48,807 nt of DNA from Acidisphaera sp. (GTDB lineage: Bacteria; Pseudomonadota; Alphaproteobacteria; Acetobacterales; Acetobacteraceae): the NCBI GenBank assembly GCA_019240635.1, contig JAFAYA010000084.1, positions 1-48,807 on the forward strand. The letters run 5' to 3'. Of the stretch, positions 20,364 through 27,060 are shown piece after piece. Below the pieces are notes generated by a model. It was not told the DNA's origin. It saw only the letters and a program-made list of their open reading frames with translations, and did no database searches. The translations under genes and the position numbers were made by a program. How positions within the stretch are numbered: the first letter of the stretch is position 1; each line of letters opens with the position of its first letter.

Positions 20364-21431
20364 CTATACACCCAATGCCGACAATGCCGCTCTAATAACG
20401 GTAATTGGCAGATAGAAAGCTGAATCACGGTAAAACTGGGCCTCGTCGCCTACTACTGGACCGCGCGCTTCTGCCCAGGCAACTCCCGGTTTGGCTTGGA
20501 AAAGATTATAGAAAAAGCGATCACCGAATTGCTCCGGGGCGGCCGCTATCACACGGGTTCCTGGGGGAGAATAGATTAGCCCGGAGAGAGTAGATCCAAG
20601 TACAGAGAAAATCGTCCTTGCCGAACGGAAGATTTGAAGTTGAGTCAGGAATGGCTTTAGGCCAACGTCAATCAGACGAAAGCGCTCCTGCACTAAATAA
20701 TTGTTAACCTCGTCGGCATTTGCAACCGCTCGGCGGCTGTCGCTTCGAAGAAGCGCAACGCGACGCGGGCCCTCGTTTGATCTGGGAACAACAGCTTCGA
20801 CCACCCCGGCAACATCTGGATGGAAAAAAAAATTCGTCAAGACAGAGGTCAGGCCGTAGAGGCTCTGAAACTGGTAGGTGCGTCCGCTGTGAAGCGCTAC
20901 CAGCCGATCTATTTCGACTCCGTACGCTGAGAATGCTTCGCTAAGGCGCAGCCGCAGTGTCCCGTCCTCGAAGACCCATCCGGGTACGGCAAACCGAAAG
21001 CGGCCTGGCCAGGTTCGTTCGGCGACCGCGACCTTCGGCAGTAATTCGACCAGCCAGTGGCCCCACGTGCCTTCGCCATAGCGCGCAACCAGAAAAACTT
21101 CGCCATCGACCTCCTCAAATGGCTGCCTATTTGCTGCCTCAAGGAGTGAGGCCAAACTGCCGGCGAGACCCGGGTTGAGCTGCTCGGAGATAAGGACATC
21201 GCCTATGATGGCCTCGAAACCTGATCCTGACACCTGCGTGCCTGCCGGCAGGTGCTCGAGAGATATCGGCTCCGCATATCCACTTCGGGCTGCATAAGCG
21301 GGACTCCAGGCCGAGCGTAGCTCGGACGGCGCGTTCGAAAATGCGAGGATGTCGGGAGCCGACAAATGCCTCGCCGGGAACACCAGTTCCGATGAGCGCG
21401 ACACGCTGGTTAGAGACGCGACCTTGGGCAC
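20364..21431 (-). CDS. Glycosyltransferase family 61 (DUF563) protein
   Basis: This 355-residue protein starts at a GTG. The family signature GTWGHWLVELLPKVAVAE lies near residue 120. Later come RRVALLRSDSRRAVANADEV, FRSARTIFSVLGSTLSGLIY and SPPGTRVIAAAPEQFGDRF, which fit the C-terminal nucleotide-sugar part of GT61 enzymes. These transfer pentoses or hexosamines to surface polymers. Its composition is intermediate between the AT-rich downstream genes and the GC-rich upstream ones. The 148 bp upstream (21432-21579) shows no gene. Confidence 0.78.
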   Translation of the reverse strand: MPKVASLTSVSRSSELVFPARHLSAPDILAFSNAPSELRSAWSPAYAARSGYAEPISLEHLPAGTQVSGSGFEAIIGDVLISEQLNPGLAGSLASLLEAANRQPFEEVDGEVFLVARYGEGTWGHWLVELLPKVAVAERTWPGRFRFAVPGWVFEDGTLRLRLSEAFSAYGVEIDRLVALHSGRTYQFQSLYGLTSVLTNFFFHPDVAGVVEAVVPRSNEGPRRVALLRSDSRRAVANADEVNNYLVQERFRLIDVGLKPFLTQLQIFRSARTIFSVLGSTLSGLIYSPPGTRVIAAAPEQFGDRFFYNLFQAKPGVAWAEARGPVVGDEAQFYRDSAFYLPITVIRAALSALGV

Positions 21432-21579: not shown

Positions 21580-21978
21580 CTACCACATCTCCGCGGGCGC
21601 GCGCCCCTCCTGATACCCGAACTTCAGGAAATGCTCCTGCGCGGAGGCGAAGTCGCCGTTGCGCAGGCCTTCCGCGACATCCTGATTCTGCCGGATATAC
21701 CAACGCTCGTCGATCTGCTGCGCCGCCGGAAGGCGGCCTTCGAAATAGCCTTCCTCCACAAAATGGTGTTTGGCCGAGCGATACATCCCCGCCTTGATCG
21801 CCGCCGCCACATCTTCATAGCGGCCCCTGTACCAGGCCTCATCTACCGGAACGGAGCGCAGCAGCAGGCGGATTACCTCCTTGATCGCGTCGACGCTGAC
21901 GGCCCGAGGCGGCCCACCGTTCCGCGGCGTGCCGCCGATCATCTTCTGAATGGTGCTGAAGGGAACGATATAGGACAT
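21580..21978 (-). CDS. Small protein with two tandem WY..Y.DV...HF..GY.EGR repeats
   Basis: This is a 132-residue protein. After a short head (MSYIVPFSTIQKMIGG) it has two copies of a helical unit of about 45 residues: VDEAWYRGRYEDVAAAIKAG then HHFVEEGYFEGR, and IDERWYIRQNQDVAEGLRNG then EHFLKFGYQEGR. Similar units occur as appendages of glycosyltransferases and rhamnan-type synthesis proteins, where their role is not established. Here they are a stand-alone gene between two glycosyltransferase genes on the same strand. No signal peptide is present. The start ATG at 21978 is the first Met ahead of the conserved part. Confidence 0.72.
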   Translation of the reverse strand: MSYIVPFSTIQKMIGGTPRNGGPPRAVSVDAIKEVIRLLLRSVPVDEAWYRGRYEDVAAAIKAGMYRSAKHHFVEEGYFEGRLPAAQQIDERWYIRQNQDVAEGLRNGDFASAQEHFLKFGYQEGRAPAEMW

Positions 21979-22051: not shown

Positions 22052-25000
22052 TCACGAGCCGGTGTGTGCGCCTGTTCCGTTCGACGCGTCATTGCCAAGC
22101 CGCAGCATCCGCCTGCAGGCGCGATACACCTCCCCCGGTGAAATCCCGTGCAGGCAGGCGAGCCCGCGATGGCAGTCCTCAGGACGGGCGATGTAGCAGG
22201 GGCTGCACAGCACCTTGCGTCGTACCGCGATCGCCCGATCGCCGACCGGCGCCCACTCCGTCGCGTCCACGTTGCCGGAGTGGACACCCACTGTCGGCAC
22301 ACCGACTGCCGCCGCCACGTGCTGCGGGCCGCTGTTGTTGCCGACATAGAGCGCGCACGCGCGCAAGACCTGCGGCAGCTCCGCCAGTCCGACCCGGCCC
22401 ACCAGCGACACTACCCGCGACCGGTCGGGGAGATGCGCAATCACCTCCTCCGCGATCGCCGCCTCCTCGCCGACCCCGATCAGCAGCACGTGCACGTCCT
22501 CCTCGCGGACCAGCAGCTCGATCAGCGCGGCGTAGGAAGCCGGCGGCCACTGCCGCATCTCCGTTCCCACCCCCGGATGCACGCAAACCAGCTGCTTGCG
22601 CAGGAAACCTCGGGGCAGCGCACGGCCGGCGAGGCGGCGCAGCAGCCCGGGGTCGCGCTGGGCCGCTGCCTGCGGCAGCGTCGGGCGGTCCGGCTCACAG
22701 GCGATCGCCATCGTTTCGGCCAGGCGCAGCAGCCGGTCCGAGACATGCGCCCGCTTGGCCGCGAAGGCAGTGTCGCCCTCCCACTCCAGCACGACGTCGA
22801 GCCACGGAAAGCGCCCGCCGTGCTCGAACCCGGCCAGCAGTCCGGCGCCCGTGTATTGCAGGACGTGCCGCGTCTCCGGCTGCACGCGCAGGTCAATCGC
22901 GATGTCGAACCGGCGAGGCGCCAGCCGCGCCCGCAAATCGGCCAGCTCCGCCTCGCCGACGTCGAGGCCGCCCAGGGCGGAGCGGACATGGAAGAAGTTG
23001 AACTCGATGAACTCGTCGATGCAGGGCTCCAGCGCCGCCAGCGTCTTCGAGGCCTTCGCCCCGAGCACGCACAGCCGCGCCGCCGGGAAGCGCTGCTTCA
23101 GGCGCCGCAGCGCCGGAAAGGCGAGCACGAAGTCCCCGATATGGTCGAGCTTCAGCGCCAGGATGCTGCGCACGCGCTCGGCGGACACGATGGGATGGCC
23201 GGCGTGCAGCACTTCCACCGGCTCGGTATCCGGCGCGTAGTCGTCGAAGCCCGGGAGAAGGCGGGGGCTGAAGAACGGGTCGCCCTTGAGGAAGAGGTGG
23301 CGCCAGGCGTCGGAGAACTGCTGCGCGTCGTGCATGTCGCTGATCGCCGCCCGGCTCGCCAGCTCGTGATGCGTCAGCGCGGCGTAGGGCGTGAACACGA
23401 CACGGCGGCCGGCGCGCCATGCCCGCAGGCAGAAATCGAGGTCGTTGTTGATGACGCTGTGCGCCTCGTCGAAGCCGCCCAGCGTGTCGAAGACGTCGCG
23501 CCGCACCATCATGCAGGCGCCGGTGACGGCGATCGCGTTGCGCTGCGCGAGCGCCAGGCCGAACGGGCCGGGATCCTCGGCCGGCGCGAAGCGGAAGGCA
23601 TGCCGCCCGACCGAGCCCGACAGAAACATGCCGGCGTGCTGCACCCGGCCGTTGGGATAGAGCAGCAGCGGCCCGACCACACCCACCTCCGGGCGCTCCG
23701 CGTGCTCGAGCAAAGCGTGCAGCCAGTCGGGGCTCAGCACCTCGACGTCGTCGTTGAGGAACAGCAGGAACGCGCCGCGCGCCGCCGAGGCGGCGGCGTT
23801 GTTGAAGCGCGACCAGTTGAACGGGCCGGAGAGCTCGATCACCTGGTCGGCGTTCTCGCGCAGCCACGGCTTCCATCCGGCCTCGTCTGGCTCGGGGATG
23901 GTGTCGACGCAGACGATCTCGACGTTCGGGTAGGCGGTGCGCTCGTGGATCGAGCGCAGCGCGTCGCCCACCAGGCCGCGCGAGGCGCAGGTGGGGATGA
24001 TGATGGAGACCAGCGCCTCCGTCCCCACCACGCGACGGGCGCGGTACACGCCGGCGGCGGCGCCGGGCAGGATTTCCGCGCGCTCGCCGCGCCGCGCGAA
24101 CGCCTCGGCGAGCGCCCGCCGCTCGCTCTCCGCCGGCTCGGCGGCGTCGGACGCGCGCTCGCACAGGATCTTTCGGACGTGGCGAATGGCGCGGGCACGG
24201 TCGGTCAGCCGCAGCACCGCATCATACTCGCCCGCCGCCGGCGACGCGCCGTCGCCGAGGCCGCTCGCCGCCAGAAGGTCGCGGGAGGCGCACCACAGCC
24301 GGCCGACGTAGTTGGTGCTGAGCAGCAGGTCGGGCGACCAGTCCGGCTTGAAAAACGGCCGCATCGCCTGCAGCACCGGGTCATAGCGGCGCTCGTCGCT
24401 GTAGATGAAATCGGCGTCGGGGTTGAATGCCGACTCGATGGCCAGTTCGAGCAGCGCATCGGCGCCGAGCCGGTCGCCGGCCGACAGCCGGATCAGGAAG
24501 CGCGGGCCCGGTCCGGCCGCCCAGGGCAGCGCTTCGGCGGCGGCCCTGATTTCGATGCGGGGATCGTCTGATGTGGAACGCTCAGGTGCAGCGGGCAGGA
24601 TGGCCCGCCACGCGCCATAAGCCTGCCGGCGCAGCGTCTCCAGCGTCTCTTCCAGGCGTCCGGACGCATCCGCCGGCCCGGGGTCGATCAGCACGGAAAA
24701 CTGCGGCCGGCTGCCCAGCCGCTCCAGCAAAGCCAGGCCGAGATCGGCTTCCGCCTGCGTCACCCGGGCGCGGATCGTCAGATGCGCGGTGCTCTGCTCG
24801 GCGGATTCCGCGACGACCTGAAAGCTGCGCTCGGCAGCCTGCCCGGACTGGCCGCGCGCCGCCACCCGGACCGCGTGCGCGCCGGTCAGGCGCTGCGGCA
24901 CGGTCAGCGCGAAGCCAGACAGCAGGGCGCCGGGGATTTCCGGGAACAGCGCGGCGATGTCCTCGCGGCGGATGCCGAGATGCGCCACGCCGGCGCTGCG

Positions 25001-26302
25001 CTCGTCGATGAAGACCTCGACCGCCTCGATCCCTTCGGCCGCGACCGCCCAGCCGCTGATGGTCAGCAGGCCGCGTACCGGCTCGGCCGCCTCATCGCCG
25101 TTCAGCGCCGGCCGGTCGATGTCGAATCGCAAATCCGCCGCCGCTGCCCGGATCAGGTCCTCGACCGACGGTTCGGCGCGCCTCCGGTCCTCCACCAGCA
25201 GCGAGAGCGGCACCTCACGCTGCTCGCCCGCACCGTTCTGCACCCGGACCAGCACGCGGTGCTCGCCCTCGAGCCGCCGCTCGACCGAGCGGGAAAAGCG
25301 GAAGCCGGCGCGCCGCGCGCTCGGGATACGCGGAAACCGGTTGCCGACATCGGGCCGGCTCCGCCCGATCTCCGCTTCGCCCACCGGCGTGCCGTCCAGC
25401 TCGACGGTGAGCGCGGTGATGCCGGACTCCGACACCGCCCAGCCGGCGACGGCCATCGCGCCGTCCGGGCGGAGGCTGAAGCTGTCGCAGCACACATGGA
25501 TGCTGCCGTCGCCGGCATGGACCTCCTGCGAGGTGACGGGTACCTCGAGCGGCCGGATGATCTGCCGGGTGACGCCGCCCTCGCACACCGCCTTCACGCG
25601 CACGGCGCATTGCGCCGCTTCCAGGCCGCCGACGTGCTGCGCCAGCCGGAAGCCGGAGACGCCGGCGTTCGGATACTGCGGATAGTTCGCCGCCACATCC
25701 GGCCGGCTGATGCCGAGTTCGGGCGCTTCGAGCGGCTCCTGGCCCAGGAACAGCGCCACCTCGCGCAGCGGCGTGAGGGCGGCGATCCAGCCGGCCAGGC
25801 GCAGGACGCCGCCGGCGTCGACGCGGGCGGTCTCGAGTGTGATGCGTAGCGGCCAAAGCTCCGGCGCTGAGCGGGCTGGCGCCGGCTGTCCGGCGGAGAC
25901 AGCGTCGGGGGTGGCAGGGGCGAGAGCGACGCTGCGCCGCGTCGACGCACCGCCTGGCGTGCGGACCGTCACGTGCAGGTGTCGGCGTGGCGCCTCGGCG
26001 ACCTCTTCGGTGAACCTGGCCGTGAAGGAGAAGCCGGAGTGGTCGGCGTGCGGGTAGTGCGGGAAACGCGCCGCGATGTCGGGCCGCGGCAGGCCATAGG
26101 TCGCGTAGCAGAGGAACGCATCATCCAGATGAACCGTGATCTCGGCGATCTCCTCATCGGCGATCACCCAGCCGCGGCCGCCAAGGACCGGACCGCGCGG
26201 CGCATCGGCCGCGTTCGGCTCCTCCACTTCCATCAGGATGAAGTCACCGCGCGGCAAGCGCGGTCCGGGGGGCGACCCAGCGAGGGGCCGGATCTCGTTC
26301 AT
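22052..26302 (-). CDS. Multidomain glycan-assembly protein: four beta-sandwich-like repeats, GT2 module and GT9 module
   Basis: This is a 1416-residue fusion. Residues 43-115, 170-240, 286-355 and 416-485 are four diverged repeats of the form GWA...I..V.V.LDG....A.LG..RPDVA..FP..P....SGF, which look like extracellular-type beta-sandwich modules. Residues 530-720 resemble the degenerate first half of O-antigen GT2 proteins (DADFIYSDERRYDPVLQAMR). Residues 765-1000 are a GT2 domain: VSIIIPT, FLLFLNDDVEV and GGFDEAHSVINNDLDFCLRA. Residues 1045-1400 are a GT9 heptosyltransferase-like domain: LALKLDHIGDFVLAFPALRR, VCVHPGVGTEMRQWP and GNNSGPQHVAAAVGVPTVGV. The ATG at 26302 overlaps the upstream stop (ATGA). 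The frame is open further upstream, but that part is shadow. No membrane anchor is seen, so it is probably cytoplasmic at the membrane. Confidence 0.85.
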   Translation of the reverse strand: MNEIRPLAGSPPGPRLPRGDFILMEVEEPNAADAPRGPVLGGRGWVIADEEIAEITVHLDDAFLCYATYGLPRPDIAARFPHYPHADHSGFSFTARFTEEVAEAPRRHLHVTVRTPGGASTRRSVALAPATPDAVSAGQPAPARSAPELWPLRITLETARVDAGGVLRLAGWIAALTPLREVALFLGQEPLEAPELGISRPDVAANYPQYPNAGVSGFRLAQHVGGLEAAQCAVRVKAVCEGGVTRQIIRPLEVPVTSQEVHAGDGSIHVCCDSFSLRPDGAMAVAGWAVSESGITALTVELDGTPVGEAEIGRSRPDVGNRFPRIPSARRAGFRFSRSVERRLEGEHRVLVRVQNGAGEQREVPLSLLVEDRRRAEPSVEDLIRAAAADLRFDIDRPALNGDEAAEPVRGLLTISGWAVAAEGIEAVEVFIDERSAGVAHLGIRREDIAALFPEIPGALLSGFALTVPQRLTGAHAVRVAARGQSGQAAERSFQVVAESAEQSTAHLTIRARVTQAEADLGLALLERLGSRPQFSVLIDPGPADASGRLEETLETLRRQAYGAWRAILPAAPERSTSDDPRIEIRAAAEALPWAAGPGPRFLIRLSAGDRLGADALLELAIESAFNPDADFIYSDERRYDPVLQAMRPFFKPDWSPDLLLSTNYVGRLWCASRDLLAASGLGDGASPAAGEYDAVLRLTDRARAIRHVRKILCERASDAAEPAESERRALAEAFARRGERAEILPGAAAGVYRARRVVGTEALVSIIIPTCASRGLVGDALRSIHERTAYPNVEIVCVDTIPEPDEAGWKPWLRENADQVIELSGPFNWSRFNNAAASAARGAFLLFLNDDVEVLSPDWLHALLEHAERPEVGVVGPLLLYPNGRVQHAGMFLSGSVGRHAFRFAPAEDPGPFGLALAQRNAIAVTGACMMVRRDVFDTLGGFDEAHSVINNDLDFCLRAWRAGRRVVFTPYAALTHHELASRAAISDMHDAQQFSDAWRHLFLKGDPFFSPRLLPGFDDYAPDTEPVEVLHAGHPIVSAERVRSILALKLDHIGDFVLAFPALRRLKQRFPAARLCVLGAKASKTLAALEPCIDEFIEFNFFHVRSALGGLDVGEAELADLRARLAPRRFDIAIDLRVQPETRHVLQYTGAGLLAGFEHGGRFPWLDVVLEWEGDTAFAAKRAHVSDRLLRLAETMAIACEPDRPTLPQAAAQRDPGLLRRLAGRALPRGFLRKQLVCVHPGVGTEMRQWPPASYAALIELLVREEDVHVLLIGVGEEAAIAEEVIAHLPDRSRVVSLVGRVGLAELPQVLRACALYVGNNSGPQHVAAAVGVPTVGVHSGNVDATEWAPVGDRAIAVRRKVLCSPCYIARPEDCHRGLACLHGISPGEVYRACRRMLRLGNDASNGTGAHTGS

Positions 26303-27060
26303 GTCAGCCGCCCCGGCCGGACCCCCTTGGCGGATCGTGCCGAGCGGGCCCGCGCCTTGGGCACAGGCGGGGCCGAAGGCCCGGCTGCGCCGGCGTTGGT
26401 GTAGGGCTGCACGACGTCGCGCACCGACGCCCACTGGCGAATCAGCTCCTCGAGCAGGCCCTCGATGCGAGCGATCCGCTCGTGCAGTTCGACCGGCGCG
26501 GCGGCCGGTGCATCGGCCGCCGCTGCGGTGGCCGCGGCCGAAATCGCCGAGAATGATGCGAGTTCCGCGTCTTCCAGTTCCGCCTCCGCCTCGGCCGGCG
26601 CGGCGGCGCCGTTCTCGGCGGTGCCGAACTGCGAAAGGAACCCGACCAGTCCATCCCAGCTCGTCACTCCCTGCAGCACGGCTTCCTGCGCCTCGTCCAG
26701 GACGAGCTGGCCCGCGAGCCAGGCGAGTTGGGGCGCGGACGGCGCCGGCGACAGCGCGGCATGCCGCAACGTCTCGCCGGCTCCGAGCGGGCGGGCGACC
26801 GCGTCCGCGAACTCCCGACTGCCCAGGAACGAGCGGATCATCGTCTCGATCGACTGGGTCTTGGCCTCCGCGATGACGAAGGAGTTCTCGGGGTTGCGGC
26901 CCAGGAACACCTGGTAGCACATCAGGACGTCGTAATCGTCGGCGGGCCGGGCCGCGCGGACGTGGAACGCAGGCGCGCTCCGCCGCTCATCCTCCGCGGT
27001 GCGTTTCCCGCTTGGCGACGGCGTCACCGGCCCGCGCGACCGGAGCGGCGATTTTCGCAC
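26299..27060 (-). CDS. Hypothetical protein with DUF4214-like segment, first gene of the glycan operon
   Basis: This is a 253-residue protein. Near residues 40-90 it reads DDYDVLMCYQVFLGRNPENS, later MIRSFLGSREFADAVARPLG, which recalls the YR.LLGR.Pd...fl.S.EF pattern of DUF4214-like modules often joined to glycosyltransferases or surface proteins. The middle is Ala/Glu-rich and probably disordered. A likely short coiled coil (ELHERIARIEGLLEELIRQW) follows near residue 205, and the tail is basic. It overlaps the giant fusion gene by 4 bp. The function is unknown; a scaffold for the downstream transferases is a guess. The start could be as late as the Met in VLMCYQ, but the extension has normal codon use. 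Confidence 0.65.
   Translation of the reverse strand: MRKSPLRSRGPVTPSPSGKRTAEDERRSAPAFHVRAARPADDYDVLMCYQVFLGRNPENSFVIAEAKTQSIETMIRSFLGSREFADAVARPLGAGETLRHAALSPAPSAPQLAWLAGQLVLDEAQEAVLQGVTSWDGLVGFLSQFGTAENGAAAPAEAEAELEDAELASFSAISAAATAAAADAPAAAPVELHERIARIEGLLEELIRQWASVRDVVQPYTNAGAAGPSAPPVPKARARSARSAKGVRPGRLT

Follow-up and report, generated by a model that had tools for sequence, protein, structure and literature searches.

Adenosine diphosphate-heptose (ADP-heptose) is best known as a precursor of the lipopolysaccharide (LPS) core and as a signal to innate immunity (PMC10269868), and a precedent for heptosylation outside LPS is provided by TibC, a GT-B enzyme that heptosylates exported autotransporters from ADP-D,D-heptose (PMC4358343). 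Here we describe a gene on a 48,807-nucleotide contig of Acidisphaera sp. (Acetobacteraceae; GCA_019240635.1, JAFAYA010000084.1), analysed over its whole length and called the window below, which encodes a fusion of four predicted immunoglobulin (Ig)-like modules, two domains of glycosyltransferase family 2 (GT2-A and GT2-B) and one of family 9 (GT9). We favour, with a probability of about 0.65, a reading based on its sequence, its structure models and its gene neighbourhoods, in which the protein would combine a soluble heptosyltransferase with a second glycosyltransferase and use ADP-heptose for a surface glycoconjugate other than the LPS core.

The GT9 domain shares with the LPS heptosyltransferases WaaF (1psw) and WaaC (2h1h) its family, the GT-B fold (Z 24.1 and 19.0, respectively), the position of the catalytic aspartate and the likely donor, whereas it is part of a larger chain, carries a C-terminal four-cysteine motif, scores below all equivalog cut-offs and occurs in metagenome-assembled genomes (MAGs) without an LpxC match. 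TibC/BAHT (PMC4358343) and the fusion have in common a GT-B heptosyltransferase with ADP-D,D-heptose as likely donor, a beta-rich N-terminal part and four C-terminal cysteines, spaced C-x2-C-x7-C-x5-C in the fusion and found at 339, 342, 358 and 370 in TibC, where they bind iron; further GT9 proteins have cysteines of this kind too. Unlike TibC, the fusion carries GT2 domains, and no autotransporters were found among its recurring neighbour families, although no search aimed at autotransporter domains was made. Two successive GT-A domains are also present, by alignment and fold matches, in K4CP (2z86), heparosan synthase 2 (8vh8) and bacterial tandem GT2 proteins, but in the fusion the first GT2 domain has no DXD motif and a GT9 domain follows. 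The domains are known individually, and the GT2-GT9 combination is already in RefSeq under a one-domain name: WP_215507948.1, a 'glycosyltransferase family 9 protein' on plasmid p5 of Gemmobacter fulvus, is about 49% identical over the GT2-GT9 part and is clustered with a gmhB-like gene, hldE and the small partner gene f131 described below. It differs in being annotated as 737 residues long, with no modules and with an IS6-family transposase gene just upstream. That locus (NZ_CP076366.1, 112329-114542) also lies near rfbABCD, and the module-less form was possibly truncated by the IS6-family insertion. A literature search on fusions of GT2 with GT9, and on heptose in connection with type I secretion systems (T1SS) or RTX proteins, found no account of the fusion family, most subscription papers lying outside the search.

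The fusion begins with an ATG followed by 1416 open codons on the minus strand (22052-26302), and relatives align over nearly its full length at 40-70% identity. Compared over 1412 codons with the copy from the same genus (69% amino-acid identity), it shows 309, 251 and 541 substitutions at codon positions 1, 2 and 3, respectively; because most fall at third positions, the frame is under protein-level selection, and it is a real, conserved gene rather than a chance open reading frame of GC-rich DNA. The codon-based gene call dropped an 807-residue open reading frame on the plus strand (22148-24571), which is the fusion's antisense shadow. The MAG that contains the window as its contig 43 amounts to 2.39 Mb and is 72% complete, which could raise the suspicion that separate genes were joined in assembly, but dozens of assemblies made independently, those of Rhodobacter viridis JA737 and Gemmobacter lutimaris YJ-T1-11 among them, show this fused frame uninterrupted. 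An artefact is thereby refuted, its probability being negligible, and the single long frame proposed in an earlier note on this DNA holds.

That note had also placed one GT2 and one GT9 transferase in the chain. Both were confirmed with Pfam, but a third transferase fold, GT2-A, had been missed (Table 1). The GT9 domain matches PF01075 over residues 1123-1369 (6e-23; 81.9 bits against a curated cut-off of 22), and the top match of its predicted GT-B model is WaaF, aligned over 305 residues with a root-mean-square deviation of 16.8 that reflects a different placement of the lobes. We take its invariant Asp1057 to be the counterpart of the catalytic Asp13 in WaaC, and the four invariant cysteines are likely to form a metal-binding finger. 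GT2-B matches PF13641 over residues 766-980 (7e-15; 56.1 bits against a cut-off of 27), and its acidic motifs, N-D-D among them, are invariant in 42 relatives; profile score and DXD-type motif together assign it, by sequence, to GT2 (PF00535/PF13641). When residues 506-1416 were modelled from 42 sequences, the three transferase domains were predicted to pack as one unit (predicted local distance difference test, pLDDT, 91; predicted template modelling score 0.91).

GT2-A aligns to the N-terminal domain of bacterial tandem GT2 proteins, and at the site where intact members of that group read LDHDD, every fusion covering it reads LxxGD or similar, with DXD absent. Some tandem GT2 proteins outside the fusion family (L118, L120, L121 and L123) have likewise lost the motif, so the loss is not unique to the fusions, within which, judging from the alignment, it looks fixed.

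The four repeats in residues 22-501 are 30-40% identical, and every pairwise local score lies 18-25 standard deviations above shuffled sequences. An AlphaFold model of the region, built from 36 aligned sequences, predicts four beta-sandwiches (mean pLDDT 86, approximately 90 within modules) with Ig- and fibronectin type III (FnIII)-like matches, in agreement with the beta-sandwich-like repeats that the earlier note had described. Among solved structures, the best single-domain match belongs to the sulfite dehydrogenase of Starkeya (Z 11.2; 95 residues at 24% identity). Foldseek ranks generic Ig-like chains with low template modelling scores, which point to no specific ligand for the modules; by sequence, the only match in the PDB is a weak one to an FnIII-like module (E 0.02). 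Since module number differs among relatives and the Clostridia members have none, the modules are dispensable for the glycosyltransferase core. On these data the further proposals of the earlier note, repeats that bind the growing glycan or a carrier protein and a linkage unit made in one step, are conjectural. Two observations concern other fusions: one (L040, 7642-13644) continues at its C-terminus for almost 400 additional residues with a high content of Pro, Ala and Glu, and another (L051) begins with repeats that resemble those of f131 by eye but were undetected by the f131 profile, such that we make no claim for them.

Table 1. Features of the fusion gene and its immediate neighbours in the window.
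Feature	Position	Strand	Evidence
Fusion gene, 1416 residues: four Ig-like modules, pseudo-GT2, GT2 and GT9	22052..26302	minus	Open reading frame and translation, orthologues, codon-position divergence
Module 1, predicted Ig-like beta-sandwich, residues ~22-128	25919..26239	minus	Structure model, repeat scores
Module 2, residues ~150-254	25541..25855	minus	Structure model, repeat scores
Module 3, residues ~268-372	25187..25501	minus	Structure model, repeat scores
Module 4, residues ~391-501	24800..25132	minus	Structure model, repeat scores, Z 11.2 to sulfite dehydrogenase domain
GT2-A, degenerate first GT2-type domain, residues ~525-757	24032..24730	minus	Alignment with tandem GT2 proteins, structure model
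Lost DXD site of GT2-A, residues 606-610, LSAGD (LDHDD in intact relatives)	24473..24487	minus	Alignment
GT2-B, residues ~763-1000, conserved N-D-D (850-852) and D-L-D (954-956)	23303..24016	minus	Pfam, invariant columns, structure model
GT9 domain, residues ~1045-1403	22094..23170	minus	PF01075, NCBIfam heptosyltransferase models (below cut-off), WaaF fold Z 24.1
Asp1057, invariant, in GT9 domain	23132..23134	minus	42-row alignment
Invariant cysteines 1366, 1369, 1377 and 1383	22154..22207	minus	Alignment
f131, small partner gene, 132 residues, two WY..R..DVA..I repeats	21580..21978	minus	Gene clustering, profile; downstream of fusion
Upstream gene, up to 253 residues, 4-nt overlap with fusion start, no family	26299..27060	minus	Also in same-genus locus L037
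GT61 family glycosyltransferase gene, downstream, in low-GC stretch	20364..21431	minus	PF04577, GC profile

The donor is suggested by the neighbouring genes, which were called around 57 fusion loci with a codon-usage script and then clustered. An HldE-type protein is encoded near the fusion in 26 of these loci (for a representative, the full-length equivalog gives 471.9 bits at a cut-off of 521, the kinase-domain model 344.8 at a cut-off of 345 and the adenylyltransferase-domain model 191.5 at a cut-off of 181.5), and HldD over cut-off in five. Gene order varies by lineage: a divergent hldE with f131-fusion-cysQ-coaX in Acetobacteraceae; hldE-fusion-hldD-f131-fkbH-acp in other lineages; fusion, AlgX-like, AGE epimerase, gmhB-like, hldE and f131 in Gemmobacter; and gmhA-fusion-hldE-gmhB in three Clostridia MAGs. 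Inspection of the surroundings, as suggested in the earlier note, turned up genes for the synthesis of ADP-heptose, joined in some lineages by T1SS and RTX genes, rather than flagellin or O-antigen genes. In six genomes (the three Clostridia MAGs, R. viridis, G. lutimaris and Paracoccus ravus) no GT9 was found besides that of the fusion, and in all of these except P. ravus a single strong hldE lies on the fusion's contig. No HldD over cut-off was found in those five, whereas the window's genome and a same-genus relative have it.

GT9 is the family of the LPS heptosyltransferases, and with HldD in the window's genus and hldE in the same-genus relative, the fusion could be a joined version of ordinary enzymes of LPS-core or O-antigen synthesis. 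We consider this unlikely. All NCBIfam equivalogs for LPS heptosyltransferases I, II and III and RfaQ fell below cut-off (the best, TIGR02195, at 89.5 bits against 134.6), and a GT9 tree places the fusions close to other GT9s with the four-cysteine motif and away from stand-alone GT9s that do not have it. LpxC, matched in both Rhodobacterales tested, gave no match in the three Clostridia MAGs that carry the fusion, gmhA, hldE and gmhB. Moreover, among 198 genomes sampled as a control from the family of R. viridis, hldE was found in one, R. viridis itself, which is also the one genome with the fusion; a second matched the GT2-GT2 part only.

Several points weigh against heptosylation outside LPS. 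The Clostridia genomes are MAGs of unknown completeness, which makes the missing LpxC weak evidence. In the window's own family hldE was matched in 294 of 299 sampled genomes, so that its co-occurrence with the fusion is uninformative there, and it was not found in the window's own, incomplete genome. That genome has additional GT9 genes as well as HldD, which leaves room for an LPS role of this copy. Finally, T1SS and RTX genes are not near the fusion in most Acetobacteraceae loci.

Taking these together, we still prefer a surface glycoconjugate other than the LPS core as the most likely product. The protein would be a soluble cytoplasmic enzyme with two probably active centres, of which the GT9 domain may use ADP-heptose as its heptose donor (in the D,D form in genomes without HldD) and GT2-B may add another sugar from a nucleotide sugar. 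GT2-A, having lost its DXD motif, would most likely be a scaffold, and the Ig-like modules may be optional arms, perhaps docking the acceptor or the f131 protein. The acceptor itself is a guess, and in the T1SS- and RTX-linked lineages it may be an exported protein.

T1SS and/or RTX genes flank the fusion in seven of 60 loci (L051, L081, L082, L085, L087, L092 and L097), comprising three Rhodobacterales, Curvibacter and three MAGs, and RTX repeats were confirmed with Pfam in L085 and L097. The three Rhodobacterales have a common order, ABC-HlyD-x-RTX-GT2-GT2-methyltransferase-fusion, which suggests, from gene order, that the acceptor in such lineages is a secreted protein. Five of the six linked genomes searched contain one to six HlyD genes over cut-off (L051 contains none), and in Curvibacter the sole one is that linked to the fusion; with so few HlyD genes, we estimate the chance of T1SS adjacency at a few percent at most per genome. 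An ABC match beside a Clostridia locus was left out of the count, as its neighbours show it to be a phosphate-transporter ATPase. A narrower form of the favoured reading, by analogy with TibC (PMC4358343), would have a heptose-containing oligosaccharide put on secreted RTX or other surface proteins in the cytoplasm before export, and glycosylated RTX proteins, SwmA and oscillin, have been described (PMC3034196). The shared Rhodobacterales order and the linked T1SS in Curvibacter and in the MAG of L092 argue for this form, but with such genes at just seven of the 60 loci it is no better than a tentative possibility. RTX and T1SS genes may, furthermore, accompany polysaccharide clusters, as in that for rhizobial galactoglucan.

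Polysaccharide clusters commonly contain tandem GT2 proteins, and an equally tentative view is that the fusion adds two adjacent sugars of the repeat unit of a heptose-containing exopolysaccharide, capsule or glycolipid. The rfbABCD genes, AlgX-like protein and pyruvyl transferase beside the Gemmobacter fusion, and the GT61 gene in the window, would fit such a polymer, but no Wzx, Wzy or export genes recur among the neighbour families, although the loci are often short and no profile search aimed at these genes was made. At six loci (L044, L045, L048, L057, L061 and L078) the fusion is neighboured by a gene pair for an FkbH-domain protein and a small acyl-carrier protein, an arrangement that suggests an acyl or glyceryl decoration of its glycan.

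A profile of eight orthologues (E <=1e-150) found the fusion in 43 of the 299 genomes sampled from the window's family, its own included. The architecture is present in many Acetobacteraceae and Rhodospirillales MAGs, P. ravus, R. viridis, G. lutimaris, Curvibacter, Defluviicoccus and Nitrospirillum, and the three Clostridia MAGs have the glycosyltransferase core without modules. In the GT9 tree the two Clostridia sequences join the bulk of the fusions (support 96), two Nitrospirillum fusions sit on long branches, and a strict single fusion clade was not recovered (two changes); the tree is nonetheless compatible with a single origin. More speculatively, the fusion, its own ADP-heptose genes and, outside Clostridia, f131 may form a self-contained heptosylation system that spread horizontally and works independently of LPS, even in monoderms, its targets being RTX proteins exported by Alphaproteobacteria and surface molecules of Clostridia.

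The presence of dedicated ADP-heptose genes in Clostridia MAGs and in sampled Rhodobacterales that otherwise have no hldE points to heptose glycans outside LPS, which become testable in species with a sole GT9 such as R. viridis. Single deletions there should abolish such heptose transfer, since the fusion's GT9 and hldE are the sole copies found. The pseudo-GT2 retained throughout the family also lends itself well to studying the role of dead transferase domains.

Six other GT9 proteins of Acetobacteraceae-like genomes (L004, on contig C98 of G000, L157, L158, L159, L160 and L166) carry a C-x2-C...C...C motif that ordinary stand-alone GT9s do not, and on this alignment they are a separate GT9 subgroup. 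The f131 gene lies near the fusion in 32 of the 57 loci. Directly downstream of it in the window, GC content falls to 47-63% between 18501 and 21500, against about 70-78% around, across the GT61 gene, a gene for a 228-residue protein of no family and a methyltransferase gene. It is uncertain whether the GT61 gene is part of the fusion's cluster, and the low-GC stretch was probably acquired from elsewhere.

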